64,000 bases of DNA from Burkholderiales bacterium (lineage in GTDB: Bacteria; Pseudomonadota; Gammaproteobacteria; Burkholderiales; Burkholderiaceae_E), in the NCBI GenBank assembly GCA_029977705.1, contig JAPOKJ010000001.1, positions 186,001 through 250,000 on the forward strand, given 5' to 3'. The notes under the pieces are model-generated. The model made no database searches and was not told where the DNA came from. It saw only the letters and a program-made list of their open reading frames with translations. The position numbers and the translations under genes were made by a program. This document shows positions 7,865 to 62,820 of the stretch, piece after piece (within the stretch, counting starts at the first letter, position 1; every line of letters starts with the position of its first letter).

Positions 7865-7878
7865 TTGATCTGGATCAA
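7865..7878. promoter_or_regulatory. FNR/Anr box between usp and ccoI
   Basis: TTGATCTGGATCAA matches the FNR consensus TTGAT-N4-ATCAA at every defined base. It is centred 41.5 bp before a predicted ccoI start at 7913, with TAGGAT at 7901-7906 sitting exactly at -12 to -7. It is about 40.5 bp before the predicted usp start in the other direction, so one box can serve both genes. Confidence 0.85.
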
Positions 7879-7917: not shown

Positions 7918-10284
7918 ATGGACCCTCCTGCGCCCGACCTTTTGAGATCCGATGTGACGCCCGCCGCCCCCCTTCGGCAGGCGGCAGCGCAGGTCACTCC
8001 TGCGGCCGTCTTGGGCGAAGTGCCGCAGGGGGCCGAGGTCCTGCTCGATGAGCCGCAGCGCTGGCCCGAGTTCTCCGACCCGGTCGAAGGGGGTGCCTGG
8101 GTGTCGCGCATCAGCGTGCGCGGCATGCATTGCGCTGCCTGCGCCATTACCGTCGAGGCTGCCCTGCGTCAGGTGCCGGGCGTGGCCGCCTGCTCGGTCA
8201 ATGCCGCCACCGGCCGTGCCTGGGTGCGCTGGCTGCCCGGCAGCACCCGCCCTTCGCAGTGGCTGGCGGCCATCGAGCGCAGCGGTTATCGCGGCGCACC
8301 GGTACGCGGCCTCGATCTGCTCGAGCAGGCCCGCCGTGAGCAGCGGGCCATGCTCTGGCGCTGGCTGGTGGCCGGCTTTTGCATGATGCAGGTGATGATG
8401 TACGCCTGGCCCAACTATGGCGCCATGCCGGGTGACATCGATCCGGACAGTGACCGCCTGTTGCGCTGGGCCTCCTTCCTGCTCAGCCTGCCGGTCCTGC
8501 TTTTTTCGAGCGGACCGTTCTTCGGGGCCGCCTTGCGCGACCTGCGCCAGGGCCGCATCGGCATGGATGCACCGGTGGCCATCGGCATCCTGCTCACCTT
8601 TGCCATCAGCAGCGTGGCGGCCTTCCGGCCTGATGGTCCCCTGGGCAAGGAGCTGTACTTCGACTCCCTGACCATGTTCGTGTTCATCCTGCTGTCGGGG
8701 CGCTGGATCGAGACGCGCCTGCGCGCCCAGACGGCAGGCGCACTGGATCGGGTCGCCGAGCAACTGCCGATGGCCGCCAACCGGCTGCGTCCCGATGGCA
8801 GCACCGAGCTGGTGGCCAGTGATCGCCTTAGCCTGGGCGACGTGCTGCGGGTGCGCAGCGGCGAGGGCTTCCCGGTCGATGGCGAAGTCGTCACGGGCCG
8901 CTCCTGGGCCGATGAGTCCTTGCTGACCGGCGAGTCGCAGCCCGTGCAAAAGCAGCCCGGTGATGCGGTGGCCGCGGGCAGCATCAACCTGTCCGAAACC
9001 CTCGAGGTGCGGGCCTTGCGGCTCGGGCGGGACACCCGCTTTGCCCAGATCGTCGACCTGATGGAGCGCTCGGCCCATTACAAGACGCGCACCCTCCTGC
9101 TCGCCGATCGCATCGCCCAGCCCTTTCTGGTGGCAGTGATGGCAGTTGCCGCGCTGGCCTTCTTCGGCTGGTGGTCCAGCGATCCGCATCGCGCCCTGCT
9201 GGCGGCGATCGGCGTGCTGATCGTGACCTGCCCCTGTGCACTGGCCCTGGCGGCCCCCACGGCCATGCTCACCAGTGCGGCAGCACTGGCCCGGCGCGGG
9301 GTCCTGGTGCGCGATCTGGGCGCCCTGGAGCGGCTGGCGCGGATCGACGCCGTGGCCTTTGACAAGACCGGCACCCTGACGGGCGATGGCATCGAGGTGG
9401 CCCGCATTCATCATCTCAATGCCGCCCGCTACAGTGATGTGCTGTCGATGGCGGCGGCGCTGGCCGACCAGTCCCTGCATCCTGCCTCGCGGGCCCTGGT
9501 GCGCAAGGCGGCCCTGACCCAGGCACCGGTGGCATTCTGGGTCGCCAGCCAGGTGCGCGAGCATGCCGGCCAGGGCGTGGAGGGACTGCTGGGGGCGGTG
9601 GGTGACAAGGGCCATGGCCAGTGGATGCGTCTGGGCTCGGCCGATTTTTGCCAGGTGCCCGCTGCGCAGCGCAGTGCCGACAGCGACCGCATGGAGGTCT
9701 GGCTGGCCGATGCCGATGGCCCGGTGGCCCGCTTCGAACTGTCCGAGAGCCTGCGTCCGGATGCTGCCGACACCTTGCGCCAGCTGCGCGGCCTGGGGCT
9801 CGAGCTGGCCCTTTACTCGGGCGACAGTGCCCGCTCAGTGCGCCGCGTGGTGCGTGAACTGGGGCTCGATGCCCAGGCCCAGACCCGTGCGGCCTGCTCG
9901 GCCCAGGACAAGCTGGAGGCCTTGCAGCAGCGCCAGGCCCTGGGCCAGCGGGTCGCCATGGTGGGTGATGGCATCAATGATGCGCCGGTGCTGGCCGGCG
10001 CCGATGCCTCGTTTGCGTTCTCGCGTGGCGCTGCCTTGGCCCAGGTACGGGCCGATTTCCTGCTCCTGCAGCCGCGTCTGGCCCAGGTGCCGATGGCCAT
10101 CGTGCAGGCGCGCCGCACCCTGCGCATCGTGCGCCAGAACCTGTGGTGGGCGGTGCTCTACAACCTGATCGCCGTGCCGCTGGCCCTGGCCGGCTGGCTC
10201 ACGCCCTGGATTGCAGGCCTGGGCATGGCGCTCAGTTCGCTGGCCGTCCTGGTCAATGCTGCACGGCTGCGGCGGATGCCCTGA
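7918..10284 (+). CDS. ccoI: CcoI/FixI-type copper-transporting P1B ATPase
   Basis: A 788-residue heavy-metal ATPase that supplies copper for assembly of the cbb3 oxidase. It has one HMA domain with GMHCAAC (about residues 71-77), paired membrane helices, the TGES actuator motif, the CPC copper site in TM6 (IVTCPCALALAAPTA), DKTGTLTG (phosphorylated Asp) and GDGINDAP. The first 60 residues contain no cysteine, whereas many CcoI/FixI proteins carry an extra N-terminal Cys-rich segment. It is followed 48 bp later by ccoS and then ccoNOQP, the usual order of a biogenesis and structural cluster. Expression should be FNR-dependent. Confidence 0.93.
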   Translation: MDPPAPDLLRSDVTPAAPLRQAAAQVTPAAVLGEVPQGAEVLLDEPQRWPEFSDPVEGGAWVSRISVRGMHCAACAITVEAALRQVPGVAACSVNAATGRAWVRWLPGSTRPSQWLAAIERSGYRGAPVRGLDLLEQARREQRAMLWRWLVAGFCMMQVMMYAWPNYGAMPGDIDPDSDRLLRWASFLLSLPVLLFSSGPFFGAALRDLRQGRIGMDAPVAIGILLTFAISSVAAFRPDGPLGKELYFDSLTMFVFILLSGRWIETRLRAQTAGALDRVAEQLPMAANRLRPDGSTELVASDRLSLGDVLRVRSGEGFPVDGEVVTGRSWADESLLTGESQPVQKQPGDAVAAGSINLSETLEVRALRLGRDTRFAQIVDLMERSAHYKTRTLLLADRIAQPFLVAVMAVAALAFFGWWSSDPHRALLAAIGVLIVTCPCALALAAPTAMLTSAAALARRGVLVRDLGALERLARIDAVAFDKTGTLTGDGIEVARIHHLNAARYSDVLSMAAALADQSLHPASRALVRKAALTQAPVAFWVASQVREHAGQGVEGLLGAVGDKGHGQWMRLGSADFCQVPAAQRSADSDRMEVWLADADGPVARFELSESLRPDAADTLRQLRGLGLELALYSGDSARSVRRVVRELGLDAQAQTRAACSAQDKLEALQQRQALGQRVAMVGDGINDAPVLAGADASFAFSRGAALAQVRADFLLLQPRLAQVPMAIVQARRTLRIVRQNLWWAVLYNLIAVPLALAGWLTPWIAGLGMALSSLAVLVNAARLRRMP

Positions 10285-15530: not shown

Positions 15531-15797
15531 ATGCGAAAGGCCTTCTGCATGTGCACGATATGGCCGGCCTTCCTCGGGGCGGCGGTGCTCGAGATGCTGG
15601 TGTTTGCACTGGTCGATCCGGCCGAGCTGCATCTTCCGATGCTCAGCCACCACCCCTCGGTGATGGTGGTCTACACCGCCTCGTTCTTTGTCTTCTGGAT
15701 CGGCACCCTGGTGGCCTCGGTGCTCACGGCCGTGCTGGCCGAGCGCGCCGAATCTGTCGATGCCCGCCTGCAGGCTACTGACAGACAGAAGGATTGA
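15531..15797 (+). CDS. Small two-helix membrane protein of the cco cluster, unknown function
   Basis: An 88-residue protein with two membrane helices (about residues 8-28 and 42-70). I do not recognise a named family. GGAG six bases upstream supports the ATG at 15531; a GTG at 15519 would add four residues. It follows fixH by 15 bp on the same strand, and its last 23 bases overlap the 3' end of the convergent fnr gene. Position suggests a role in oxidase assembly or membrane homeostasis under low oxygen, but nothing in the sequence proves it. Confidence 0.65.
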   Translation: MRKAFCMCTIWPAFLGAAVLEMLVFALVDPAELHLPMLSHHPSVMVVYTASFFVFWIGTLVASVLTAVLAERAESVDARLQATDRQKD

Positions 15798-16494
15798 CCA
15801 GGCGGGCCAGTGCCGCCGCATCGACGATCCGCACCTGGCGTTGCTTGACCTCGATCACGCCCTCTTCGGCAAAGCGTGACATCGAGCGGCTGACGGTTTC
15901 CAGTTTCAGGCCCAGATAGCTGCCGATTTCTTCCCGGGTCATGCGCAGCACGAACTCCGAGGAGGAGAACCCGCGCGCCTGGAAGCGCTTGGCCAGATTG
16001 AGCAGGAAGCCGGCCAGGCGTTCGTCGGCGCTCATGCTGCCCAGCAGCATCATCACGCCGTGGTCGCGCACGATCTCGCGGCTCATCACCTTGTGCACAT
16101 GGTTCTGCAGGGCGCTGACCTCACGCGACAGGGCCTGCAGCACATCGAAGGGAATGACGCAGACCTCGGTGTCCTCCAGGGCGATGGCATCGCACTGGTG
16201 GTGATCGTTCACGATGCCGTCAAAGCCCAGGATTTCACCGGCCATCTGGAAGCCGGTGACCTGATCGCGTCCGTCAGCTGCATTGACCGTGGTTTTGAAG
16301 AACCCGGTCCGGATGGCGTACAGCGATTTGAAACTATCGCCATTGCGGTAAAGATAGCCTTTTCTGATCACCTTGCGGCGGCTACCGACCAATTGGTCGA
16401 GGCGATGCATCTCGTCAGTGGTCAATCCGATCGGCAGGCATAGCTCGCGCATGTTGCAGTTCGAGCAAGCAATCTTGGCTTGTTTGAGGTCCAT
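15775..16494 (-). CDS. fnr: FNR-type oxygen-sensing transcription regulator
   Basis: A 239-residue CRP/FNR family activator. The N-terminus has CSNCNMRELC (about residues 10-19), which together with the internal Cys in DAIALEDTEVC gives the four ligands of an oxygen-labile 4Fe-4S cluster. A cyclic-nucleotide-like beta-roll follows. The C-terminal helix-turn-helix has GLKLETVSR, with the E--SR residues that read the TTGAT half-site. I chose the ATG at 16494 because an earlier start at 16584 would translate through an FNR box. It should control the four FNR boxes seen in this window. Confidence 0.95.
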   Translation of the reverse strand: MDLKQAKIACSNCNMRELCLPIGLTTDEMHRLDQLVGSRRKVIRKGYLYRNGDSFKSLYAIRTGFFKTTVNAADGRDQVTGFQMAGEILGFDGIVNDHHQCDAIALEDTEVCVIPFDVLQALSREVSALQNHVHKVMSREIVRDHGVMMLLGSMSADERLAGFLLNLAKRFQARGFSSSEFVLRMTREEIGSYLGLKLETVSRSMSRFAEEGVIEVKQRQVRIVDAAALARLVNPSVCQ

Positions 16495-16545
16495 GGGGGC
16501 TCGATACGGCGTAATACGGGTGGGAACTCTATCATGGGCGTTCCG

Positions 16546-16559
16546 TTGACCTGGATCAA
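16546..16559. promoter_or_regulatory. FNR box between fnr and hemN
   Basis: TTGACCTGGATCAA differs from the FNR consensus by one base. It is centred 41.5 bp before a predicted hemN start at 16594, with CATATT at 16582-16587 as the -10. Toward fnr no -10 has this spacing, so the box may activate hemN and act differently on fnr itself. Confidence 0.78.
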
Positions 16560-16610
16560 GGCCTGCGGTCCGCGAAGGCTTCATATTGGCGGCACACCGC
16601 CCACGTCTGC

Positions 16611-60770: not shown

Positions 60771-61574
60771 ATGCGTGTCCTGCTCACCGGTGCCAGCGGC
60801 GGCGTGGCCCGCATGCTGCGCCCCTTGTTGGCCGCCAGCGGCTTGCAACTGCGCCTGTCCGATCTCCAGCCTCCTGATGACCTGCAGGCTGGTGAGGACT
60901 TCATGGCTGCCGACCTGGCCGATGCGGCAGCCCTGGCGCCGCTGGTGCGGGATATGGAGGCCATCGTGCACCTCGGGGGCCATTCGGTCGAGGGGCCCTG
61001 GGCAACGATCCTGAAGGCCAACATCGAGGGCTGCTACAACCTGTATGAGGCCGCCTTCCAGGCCGGTGTGCAGCGCATCGTGTTTGCCTCCAGCAACCAT
61101 GTGATGGGCTTTCATGAGCGCGGCGACAAGGTCGATGCCGAGCGCATGCTGCGGCCCGATTCCCGCTATGGCGTGAGCAAGGCCTTTGGCGAGGCGCTCG
61201 GCGCCCTTTATGCCGACAAGTTCGGCCTGCGCATCACCAATCTGCGGATCGGCAACGTGGCACCTGCGCCGGTCGACCGCCGCCGGCTGGCGATCTGGTT
61301 GCATCCCGAAGATCTTTGCCAGCTGATCCTGATCGGCCTGCGCCATCCCGACATCCGCTACGAGACCTTCTACGGCATGTCGGACAATGCGCGCGCCTGG
61401 TGGGACAACCGCCGGGCGCAAGCCTTCGGCTACCGGCCGCGCCATCGCAGCGAGGACCATGCAGCCCGGGTACTGGCCGTGGCGGAAGCGCCCGATCCGA
61501 TCGCCGACCGCTTCCAGGGCGGCGCCTTCTGTTCCCAGGAGCATCCTCATCCGCCGGGCGTTCCCAAGCCCTGA
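60771..61574 (+). CDS. NAD-dependent uronate dehydrogenase-like epimerase-fold enzyme
   Basis: A 267-residue extended-SDR protein. TGASGGVARML is the NAD motif, VHLGGHSVEGPW and FASSNHVMGFH (with the catalytic Ser) match recalled Agrobacterium uronate dehydrogenase, and YGVSKAFGEALG holds the Tyr/Lys pair. WWDNRRAQAFGYRP and DRFQGGAF near the C-terminus are also Udh-like. Udh oxidises galacturonate or glucuronate to aldarolactone. This fits the TRAP importer in the same operon. Confidence 0.82.
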   Translation: MRVLLTGASGGVARMLRPLLAASGLQLRLSDLQPPDDLQAGEDFMAADLADAAALAPLVRDMEAIVHLGGHSVEGPWATILKANIEGCYNLYEAAFQAGVQRIVFASSNHVMGFHERGDKVDAERMLRPDSRYGVSKAFGEALGALYADKFGLRITNLRIGNVAPAPVDRRRLAIWLHPEDLCQLILIGLRHPDIRYETFYGMSDNARAWWDNRRAQAFGYRPRHRSEDHAARVLAVAEAPDPIADRFQGGAFCSQEHPHPPGVPKP

Positions 61575-61607
61575 CGCCGGCCTGCGCAGGGATCAAGGAC
61601 GGTTCGC

Positions 61608-61621
61608 TTGATCTGCGTCAA
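61608..61621. promoter_or_regulatory. FNR box upstream of the candidate small RNA
   Basis: TTGATCTGCGTCAA matches the FNR consensus at nine of ten defined bases. TATGAT at 61643-61648 is a -10 that places the box centre about 40.5-41.5 bp before the predicted start near 61655, as in class-II FNR promoters. Confidence 0.7.
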
Positions 61622-61642
61622 TGTCGCGTTGGCTGTGCTTTG

Positions 61643-61648
61643 TATGAT
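61643..61648 (+). promoter_or_regulatory. -10 element of the candidate small RNA
   Basis: TATGAT differs from consensus by one base and is correctly spaced from the FNR box. The predicted start is near 61655. Confidence 0.6.
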
Positions 61649-61654
61649 CAAGGC

Positions 61655-61798
61655 ATGGTCAGCATTGCAGCGTCCCCCGCGGGCGCAGGCCTTGCCGGCC
61701 ATGGACCCGGAGTGTCTTCCTCTGCGTCTTGCCGAGACCCTCTTGACGGCAGGTTCGCCCTGGGCCCCATCGCCACTGCGGTCGATGGGGTCTTTTTT
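61655..61798 (+). ncRNA. Candidate FNR-activated small regulatory RNA (about 144 nt)
   Basis: The stretch is bounded by an FNR-type promoter and a strong intrinsic terminator and lies entirely between genes. It contains short GC hairpins (around 61670-61705) and a CU-rich single-strand candidate, TCTTCCTCT at 61715-61723, able to pair with GGA-rich ribosome sites. The unit resembles enterobacterial FnrS and neisserial FNR-dependent small RNAs in plan; I do not claim sequence homology. An alternative is a leaderless small protein, because an ATG sits at 61655, but its frame runs through the terminator and into the next gene with no stop until about 61940. Confidence 0.55.
61765..61798 (+). terminator. 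Intrinsic terminator
   Basis: CCCCATCG and CGATGGGG form a perfect 8-bp stem with a 10-nt loop, followed by TCTTTTTT. It is the only textbook intrinsic terminator I see in the window, and it ends 24 bases before the EamA start codon. Confidence 0.9.
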
Positions 61799-61806
61799 AT
61801 GTTCAG

Positions 61807-61815
61807 TGCTATAAA
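61807..61815 (+). promoter_or_regulatory. Extended -10 promoter of the EamA gene
   Basis: TG-C-TATAAA (hexamer 61810-61815) lies six bases before the ATG at 61822, predicting a leaderless message. It begins directly after the terminator, so this gene is an independent unit. Confidence 0.5.
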
Positions 61816-61821
61816 CCGGAC

Positions 61822-62820
61822 ATGTCCCACGTTGATGCAAGGGCTGATTCCGGTGCAAAGCACCCGGCCGCAGCGGGTCCCTCTCCCGCGCACTGGAGCC
61901 ATGCCTTTGAAGCCTATTCCCTGCCGATCGCCCTGGTGCTGATCACGCTGTGGGGCCTGAACTTCTCGGTACAGAAGTCGGTCTTCCAGTGGATGTCTCC
62001 CAATGGCGTCCTGCTGGTGCGCTATGGCCTGATCATGCCGGTGTGCTCGGTCATCCTGCTGCTGCTCACCTATGGCCGGCGCTGGCCGCGCTTGTCGCGG
62101 GCCGATGTCTGGACGCTGTTCAAGGTCGGTCTGGTCGGCCATCTCGTGCATGTCGGCCTGGTGATGCATGGCATGAACTGGTCGACCCCGTTTTCCAGTT
62201 CGGTGCTGATTGCCTGTGGACCCTTGTTCACCCTGCTGCTGCTGCGGGTCATGACCCACGAGAAGATGCAGCGCGCGGTGTTCTCGGGCGTCCTGATCGC
62301 AATGGCTGGCGTCCTTATCTTCCTGTCCGAAAAGCTGCTCACCGGCAGCTTCACCGCCAGCCTGGGCGATCTCGCCCTCCTGCTGGCCGCTGCGCTGTTT
62401 TCGTACTACACGGTGGTCACCCGTCCGCTCAATGAGCGTCTGGGCGGTGTGCCGGTGATGACCTACACCGCCTTGCTCAGTTGCCCACCGATCGTGCTGA
62501 TGGCCTCGCTCGGGGGCGGTTGGTCGGTGGCCTGGTCGCAGGTGCCTCTCAGTGGCTGGCTCAGCCTGGGCTACAGCGTGGTGGTGGCGGCCTTCGTTGG
62601 CTGGTCGGTGTGGGGCTGGATCAACCGGGTACGCGGCGTGGCCCGCAGTGCGCCGCTCAATTACCTGATGGCGCCGGTGGCGGGTGCGGTGTCCTGGGCG
62701 GTGGGAGGCGAGAGTTTCACCTGGGTCAAGATCCTGGGCGCCGTGCTGGCGCTGGCCGGTGTGGCCTATGCCCAGTTTGCCTCGCAGGACCAGCGCGTGC
62801 TGCCGCCGGCAGGCGAGTAA
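61822..62820 (+). CDS. EamA/DMT-family transporter
   Basis: A 332-residue drug/metabolite transporter with ten helices in two EamA repeats (about residues 33-165 and 180-315). LITLWGLNFSVQKSVFQW opens the first repeat, and LGAVLALAGVAYAQF closes the second. The N-terminal 30 residues are hydrophilic. Family members export amino acids or other metabolites; nothing indicates the substrate. Confidence 0.9.
   Translation: MSHVDARADSGAKHPAAAGPSPAHWSHAFEAYSLPIALVLITLWGLNFSVQKSVFQWMSPNGVLLVRYGLIMPVCSVILLLLTYGRRWPRLSRADVWTLFKVGLVGHLVHVGLVMHGMNWSTPFSSSVLIACGPLFTLLLLRVMTHEKMQRAVFSGVLIAMAGVLIFLSEKLLTGSFTASLGDLALLLAAALFSYYTVVTRPLNERLGGVPVMTYTALLSCPPIVLMASLGGGWSVAWSQVPLSGWLSLGYSVVVAAFVGWSVWGWINRVRGVARSAPLNYLMAPVAGAVSWAVGGESFTWVKILGAVLALAGVAYAQFASQDQRVLPPAGE

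Follow-up and report, generated by a model that had tools for sequence, protein, structure and literature searches.

A segment of 144 nt (61655-61798, + strand), lying between a dehydrogenase gene and an eamA-type transporter gene, is probably an independent gene for an FNR-activated, trans-acting small non-coding RNA. The segment belongs to a 64-kb stretch of a Burkholderiales draft genome, and it is this whole stretch that we call the window. The elements that define the candidate are an FNR-type box with a -10 hexamer at its start and an intrinsic terminator at its end. As in the known FNR-activated small RNAs, the box and the -10 stand at the class-II distance, the unit as read from its sequence anatomy is short and closed by a terminator, and the segment is non-coding. 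The predicted transcript begins with AUG, its start being placed from the promoter elements. An earlier note on this DNA had proposed such an RNA from inspection of the letters, and its claims are taken up below where the evidence bears on them.

The promoter

The FNR-type box, TTGATCTGCGTCAA (61608-61621, + strand), agrees with the consensus at 9 of 10 positions, and the -10 hexamer TATGAT (61643-61648, + strand) follows it after a spacer of 21 nt, which is class-II spacing; there is no -35 element. TATGAT is followed by a discriminator of 6 nt and then by an ATG, whose A (61655) is the predicted start. From that start the centre of the box lies at -40.5, and a start at 61656 would be required for a centre at -41.5. 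For FNR sites of class II the usual centre is close to -41.5: that of fnrS is at -41.5 (PMC3032703), and that of Herbaspirillum fnr1 at -42 (PMC5934665). A generic promoter scan reported no sigma-70 promoter in the region of the box and TATGAT because the -35 is missing, as expected for an activator-dependent promoter.

Such an arrangement is rare in this DNA. The strict box pattern, TTGATNNNNRTCAA, is matched 6 times in the window, at 4 sites, where shuffles average 0.03 matches. In the draft genome as a whole (4.3 Mb in 143 contigs, about 96% complete) it occurs at 14 distinct sites, the one at 61608 among them, while the reversed control pattern gives one match per strand. Two instances of the box followed after 19-23 nt by TANNAT are present in the window and none in 100 dinucleotide shuffles of it. 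The same two are the only such sites genome-wide, the second preceding the gene for the copper-type P-type ATPase at 7918; the looser hexamer TANNNT adds two further sites in the genome. Hexamers of the form TA...T that match at 5 or more of 6 positions number nine on the + strand of the 64 kb, TATGAT included; at the base composition of the window, one would fall within the five allowed spacings with a probability of about 0.002. The earlier description of a near-perfect FNR box, with TATGAT at class-II spacing from it, is thus borne out, and the coordinates and lengths given there are correct. Boxes of this kind would also suit a NO-sensing regulator of the Dnr/NnrR type.

The presumed activator is encoded in the same window, by an fnr gene at 15775-16494 on the - strand (NF008365, 242 bits against a cut-off of 228, scored on 15775-16584). 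Since the longer frame of 269 codons, reaching to 16584, overlaps an FNR box at 16546-16559, ATG 16494 is the likelier start; it gives a protein of 239 aa and leaves the box between fnr and hemN. The N-terminus of the translation reads CSNCNMRELC, which we take to fit the cysteine spacing of iron-sulphur FNR proteins. Also in the window are ccoN, ccoO, ccoG and hemN, each above its NCBIfam cut-off, a P-type ATPase above both the heavy-metal and the copper cut-offs, and a stress protein whose universal stress protein matches all fall below cut-off. The other strict boxes of the window lie at 7865 (between the stress protein and ATPase genes), 10467 (before ccoN) and 16546 (between fnr and hemN). 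With Fnr above cut-off and boxes at ccoN, at the P-type ATPase and between fnr and hemN, the earlier statement that the window holds fnr and three other FNR targets is supported at the level of sequence.

Ten further strict sites lie outside the window, and the neighbours inspected at seven of them encode polyphosphate kinase 2, an MFS transporter, HDOD and DksA/TraR-type zinc-finger proteins, an iron alcohol dehydrogenase, an ABC ATPase, and DUF465 and DUF2244 proteins. One perfect box lies 74 nt upstream of the polyphosphate kinase 2 frame (PF03976; L067, about 1501; G000:C36:3722). Another lies between the divergent HDOD-domain and DksA/TraR-type zinc-finger genes (L074, about 1501; G000:C114:7835), a position that may possibly bring a stringent-type regulator under oxygen control.

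The terminator

The predicted transcript ends at an intrinsic terminator (61765-61798, + strand). Its perfect 8-bp stem (61765-61790), with arms CCCCATCG and CGATGGGG at 61765-61772 and 61783-61790, encloses a loop of 10 nt and is followed by UC and a run of six U residues (TC, then T6 at 61793-61798, in the DNA); the pairs of the stem have predicted probabilities of 0.73-0.77. When strong terminators are defined by a perfect stem of at least 8 pairs, a loop of 3-12 nt and then at least 6 T in 8, this is the sole one on either strand of the window, shuffled sequences having a mean of 0.05 and at most 1. A generic terminator scan did not list it, probably because the 10-nt loop exceeds the limit of 8 in that scanner. 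What the scan listed instead was a weak candidate within the promoter (61617-61633), of a kind that shuffles contain 1.2 times on average. The perfect stem-loop with its U-run can be read directly from the letters, just as the earlier note had it, and is unique at its strength in the window.

The pairing of a class-II promoter with such a terminator also sets the site apart from others of its kind. The class-II pattern was searched in all 74 genomes of the family (78 rows), and a tighter form of it in 76 genomes of the family and order. We inspected 96 distinct sites in 91 loci, comprising the 78 family rows and, from other families, 18 sites in 14 loci; 23 of the 37 other-family rows from the tighter search had no locus of their own and fell outside the 96 inspected sites as such. 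That the pattern does pick out promoters of the FNR type is seen from what follows the 96 class-II-like sites: in ten cases a relative of ccoN, and in two a relative of the stress protein (the window's own counted). At a single one of the 96, the 61608 site, the next 320 nt contain an 8-pair stem with a U-run; near the promoter of one other (L230, a ccoN relative) there is a stem of 6 bp whose tail is poor. An open frame of at least 70 codons starts within 150 nt of 84 of the 96 sites, a mechanical count that includes the 61608 site and is therefore a weak measure.

The segment between promoter and terminator

The segment 61655-61798 is non-coding by a codon-position test and by Pfam. GC3 minus GC2 stays in the range from -0.04 to 0.04 in each of the six frames of 61655-61797; for the coding reference, 295 windows of similar length from 14 hand-picked genes of the window, the 5th percentile is 0.28. 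Two forward frames are open, one from the ATG at 61655 to 61942 and one through 61644 to 61814. Both run past the terminator, so that neither would end inside the predicted transcript, and neither has a Pfam match; the third forward frame contains an internal stop and no long ORF. Small ORFs within 61655-61798 were likewise rejected on the missing codon-position signal. The earlier judgement that some 144 nt here hold no convincing ORF is confirmed by these results.

The RNA is predicted to fold at -65.6 kcal/mol (61655-61799), a stability that is only mildly unusual by this model (z = -2.0; 5 of 200 shuffles equally or more stable). The CU-rich stretch to which the earlier note drew attention, TCTTCCTCT (RNA UCUUCCUCU; 61715-61723, + strand), is present, and its first four bases (UCUU, 61715-61718) are mostly unpaired in the predicted ensemble. 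Between it and the terminator lies a possible hairpin (61728-61753, + strand), in which CUUGCCG and CGGCAGG would pair, with probabilities of 0.36-0.67, around a CU-rich loop of 12 nt, AGACCCUCUUGA.

Conservation and homology searches

The absence of conservation is the main weakness of the case: it neither supports the candidate nor supplies targets for it. With blastn, no relative of the segment was found in 73 other genomes of the family or in 398 other genomes sampled from the order, some of them from the same family; the order sample is the less sensitive, because two candidates were scored per genome. Fragments matched in 11 of 149 and 7 of 73 other genomes (E up to 0.01) and in 3 of 398 (E up to 0.001). 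These fragments measure 22-48 bases, the best has an E-value of 4.3e-5, and none spans the whole unit; a blastn search of plasmids with the segment gave no match. No other genome of the same genus is among the 74 family genomes searched. The best fragment (L003) and two others (L007 and L013) are pieces around FNR-type boxes located elsewhere. At L007 (G123:C34, 1501-1717), in another family, a box TTGATCTGCATCAA with similar flanks stands about 110 nt before a gene for the small SRP RNA (RF00169, 1619-1717, 77.5 bits).

The flanking genes tell a similar story. An FNR box with at least 9 matches is found in none of 29 cases within 500 nt upstream of relatives of eamA (one with 102 nt only), and in none of 19 within 500 nt on the relevant side of relatives of the dehydrogenase gene. 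Loci to examine existed in 29 of the other 37 eamA genomes and for 19 of the other 37 dehydrogenase rows, with identities to the window's genes of 47-56% and 45-67%, respectively. Upstream of one eamA relative (L016) stands a long terminator with no box. The junction of the dehydrogenase gene with eamA recurs in none of the 48 other loci searched, and one related-locus search with EamA returned nothing. Relatives of CcoN are found at 80 loci or more, the best at about 83-85% identity among the matches listed, most of the top rows coming from Comamonadaceae, Burkholderiales or a genus belonging to it; not being a marker gene, CcoN gives a rough taxonomic guide only.

Considering that no other genome searched contains a relative, the candidate is at most lineage-specific, and the unit appears, as far as can be seen from the sequences compared, to be confined to a single lineage. 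For such a unit comparison cannot separate function from accident, and selection on the RNA cannot be shown. The earlier suggestion of a new anaerobic regulatory RNA of Burkholderiales, in the sense of a shared family, consequently finds no support in the genomes searched, and the conservation that it had proposed to look for in related genomes amounts to the short fragments above, with no full-length relative.

The earlier note knew of no FNR-induced small RNA with this sequence, and the Rfam covariance models agree, giving no match at gathering score anywhere in the window, that of enterobacterial FnrS included. In 61560-61900 the sole match at E up to 5 is anti-hemB (RF02837, Burkholderia RNA 7) at 61727-61798. 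This RNA resembles the candidate in having a hairpin with a CU-rich loop before its terminator, at a score (15.1 bits against a gathering score of 49.5, E 0.43) that is at chance level, and membership in its family was rejected. Among the open-licence papers listed, the titles and abstract openings contain no description of the candidate RNA or of an FNR-activated small RNA in Burkholderia-like bacteria, and the main text of a paper on Herbaspirillum small RNAs does not contain the word 'Fnr' (PMC7011215).

Alternative readings

The genes on either side, both on the + strand, offer the main alternatives to an independent small RNA gene. The upstream gene (60771-61574) encodes an NAD-dependent epimerase/dehydrogenase (PF01370), for which the best NCBIfam model, Azf, gives 141 bits against a cut-off of 400. 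The downstream gene (61822-62820) encodes the eamA-type transporter (PF00892). Six bases before its ATG at 61822 there is an extended -10-like sequence, TGCTATAAA (61807-61815, + strand), which on a reading of the sequence may be a separate eamA promoter; no Shine-Dalgarno sequence is evident in 61799-61824. Together these suggest that the eamA mRNA is leaderless or nearly so, and eamA is probably read from this start and -10 of its own, located past the terminator.

The main rival, unlikely in our view, is that the segment is an FNR-driven 5' leader of eamA, in which a conditional terminator would allow FNR and a second signal to set eamA expression by attenuation. From the end of the U-run it is 23 nt to ATG 61822, on the same strand, and the RNA can fold in two ways. 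Either the terminator stem forms (about 0.77), or a long alternative does, in which 61735-61741 pair with 61787-61793 and so occupy the terminator's 3' half (ensemble probability 0.23). The minimum-energy fold contains this competing pairing, which breaks the terminator stem, and the best fold that keeps the terminator is 1.0 kcal/mol less stable; it is because of this competing fold that attenuation keeps a share of the probability. Against it, the competing fold pairs with the 3' half of the terminator and not with the 5' half. The usual antiterminators pair with the 5' half. The -10-like sequence just before the eamA ATG also speaks against a leader, and so does the lack of the box before all 29 eamA relatives.

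Somewhat less probable again is that the segment forms the long 3' end of the operon of TRAP-transporter and dehydrogenase genes. The terminator would then be that operon's own, with the box and -10 either unused or driving an internal RNA of the 3'UTR type. Past the stop codon at 61574 there is no second terminator as strong as this one, and there is a precedent in NarS, a 3'-end RNA from narK in an FNR-controlled transcript (PMC8139620). The distance of about 190 nt between stop codon and terminator argues the other way, however, as does the presence of a box and -10 at a spacing not expected by chance.

That no transcript starts here at all, the box being functionless or the array accidental, we regard as very improbable: the lack of conservation in any genome searched would fit such an accident, but box, -10, spacing and terminator occur jointly. 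Least probable of all is that a small protein is translated from ATG 61655 on a leaderless mRNA, a reading which the earlier note had already ranked below a small RNA. The predicted start does coincide with the A of that ATG, in a frame open to 61942, but the frame meets no stop before the terminator and has neither a codon-position signal nor a Pfam match, and gonococcal FnrS also begins with AUG, yet a leaderless fusion there was inactive (PMC3032703).

A proposed function for the candidate RNA

If the segment is an independent small RNA gene, its action can be pictured as follows. At low oxygen, the iron-sulphur form of the window-encoded Fnr would bind the box and, as a class-II activator, bring RNA polymerase to TATGAT. 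Transcription would begin near 61655 and stop at the U-run ending at 61798, provided that promoter and terminator are both active as predicted. The RNA might then bind Hfq through its terminator and U-tail; Hfq is encoded in the genome (97.9 bits, above cut-off). The CU-rich parts, namely 61715-61718 and the loop 61735-61746, could pair with purine-rich ribosome sites, and the paired mRNAs would be those for functions dispensable without oxygen, whose translation would be lowered.

When 56 start regions in the window were scanned, the mean duplex energy was -53.0, against -52.0 (sd 1.4) for 40 shuffled RNAs, and the best duplex was -76.5, against shuffled bests that average -72.4 and reach -80.5. 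These are whole-RNA duplex energies without accessibility, for crudely called genes of the window only. As the energies lie within the shuffled range, we name no target.

A combination of functions is also conceivable, though we think it improbable: a lineage-specific, oxygen-controlled RNA with two outputs. It would be a terminated, trans-acting small RNA by default, and an FNR-controlled read-through leader of eamA whenever the terminator is opened by the alternative fold (61735-61741 with 61787-61793), by a bound target or by a protein.

Relation to known FNR-controlled small RNAs

The closest known RNA in anatomy is gonococcal FnrS, a 108-nt transcript that begins with AUG downstream of a class-II FNR box at -41.5 and a -10, and whose Rho-independent terminator silenced a downstream lacZ (PMC3032703). 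The candidate shares the class-II site, the -10, the predicted AUG start and the Rho-independent terminator. It is longer (144 nt), its box agrees at 9 of 10 positions where the gonococcal box is perfect, and it lies between genes, whereas gonococcal FnrS is antisense inside an annotated ORF (NGO0796). Enterobacterial FnrS, which also has class-II FNR activation, is the model for the proposed silencing (PMC8139620, PMC3032703); it represses more than 30 mRNAs of functions dispensable without oxygen (PMC8139620). The candidate has no match to its Rfam family at gathering score.

Two further RNAs are similar in logic. Meningococcal AniS is reported to be made under oxygen limitation (PMC5362039). 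SicX (PA1414) of Pseudomonas aeruginosa is a short, Anr-dependent RNA that is induced without oxygen and has upstream a motif for Anr, a regulator of the FNR type; it activates ubiUVT, its proven target, to the same effect with or without Hfq (PMC10247376). SicX differs from the candidate in having 258 aligned orthologues and a proven target, while the candidate has no orthologue among the genomes searched and no named target. By analogy, the candidate would work, if at all, like FnrS, AniS and SicX, and the tests run place it in none of their families.

Should the transcript exist, it would suggest that regulators of the FNR type gain a small RNA of their own independently, in enterobacteria, Neisseria, Pseudomonas and here, with no evident shared sequence. 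'FNR plus one small RNA' would then be a recurring design, to be sought by anatomy (class-II box, -10, terminator, no ORF) and not by sequence, and the inspection of 96 sites for terminators is a simple version of such a screen.
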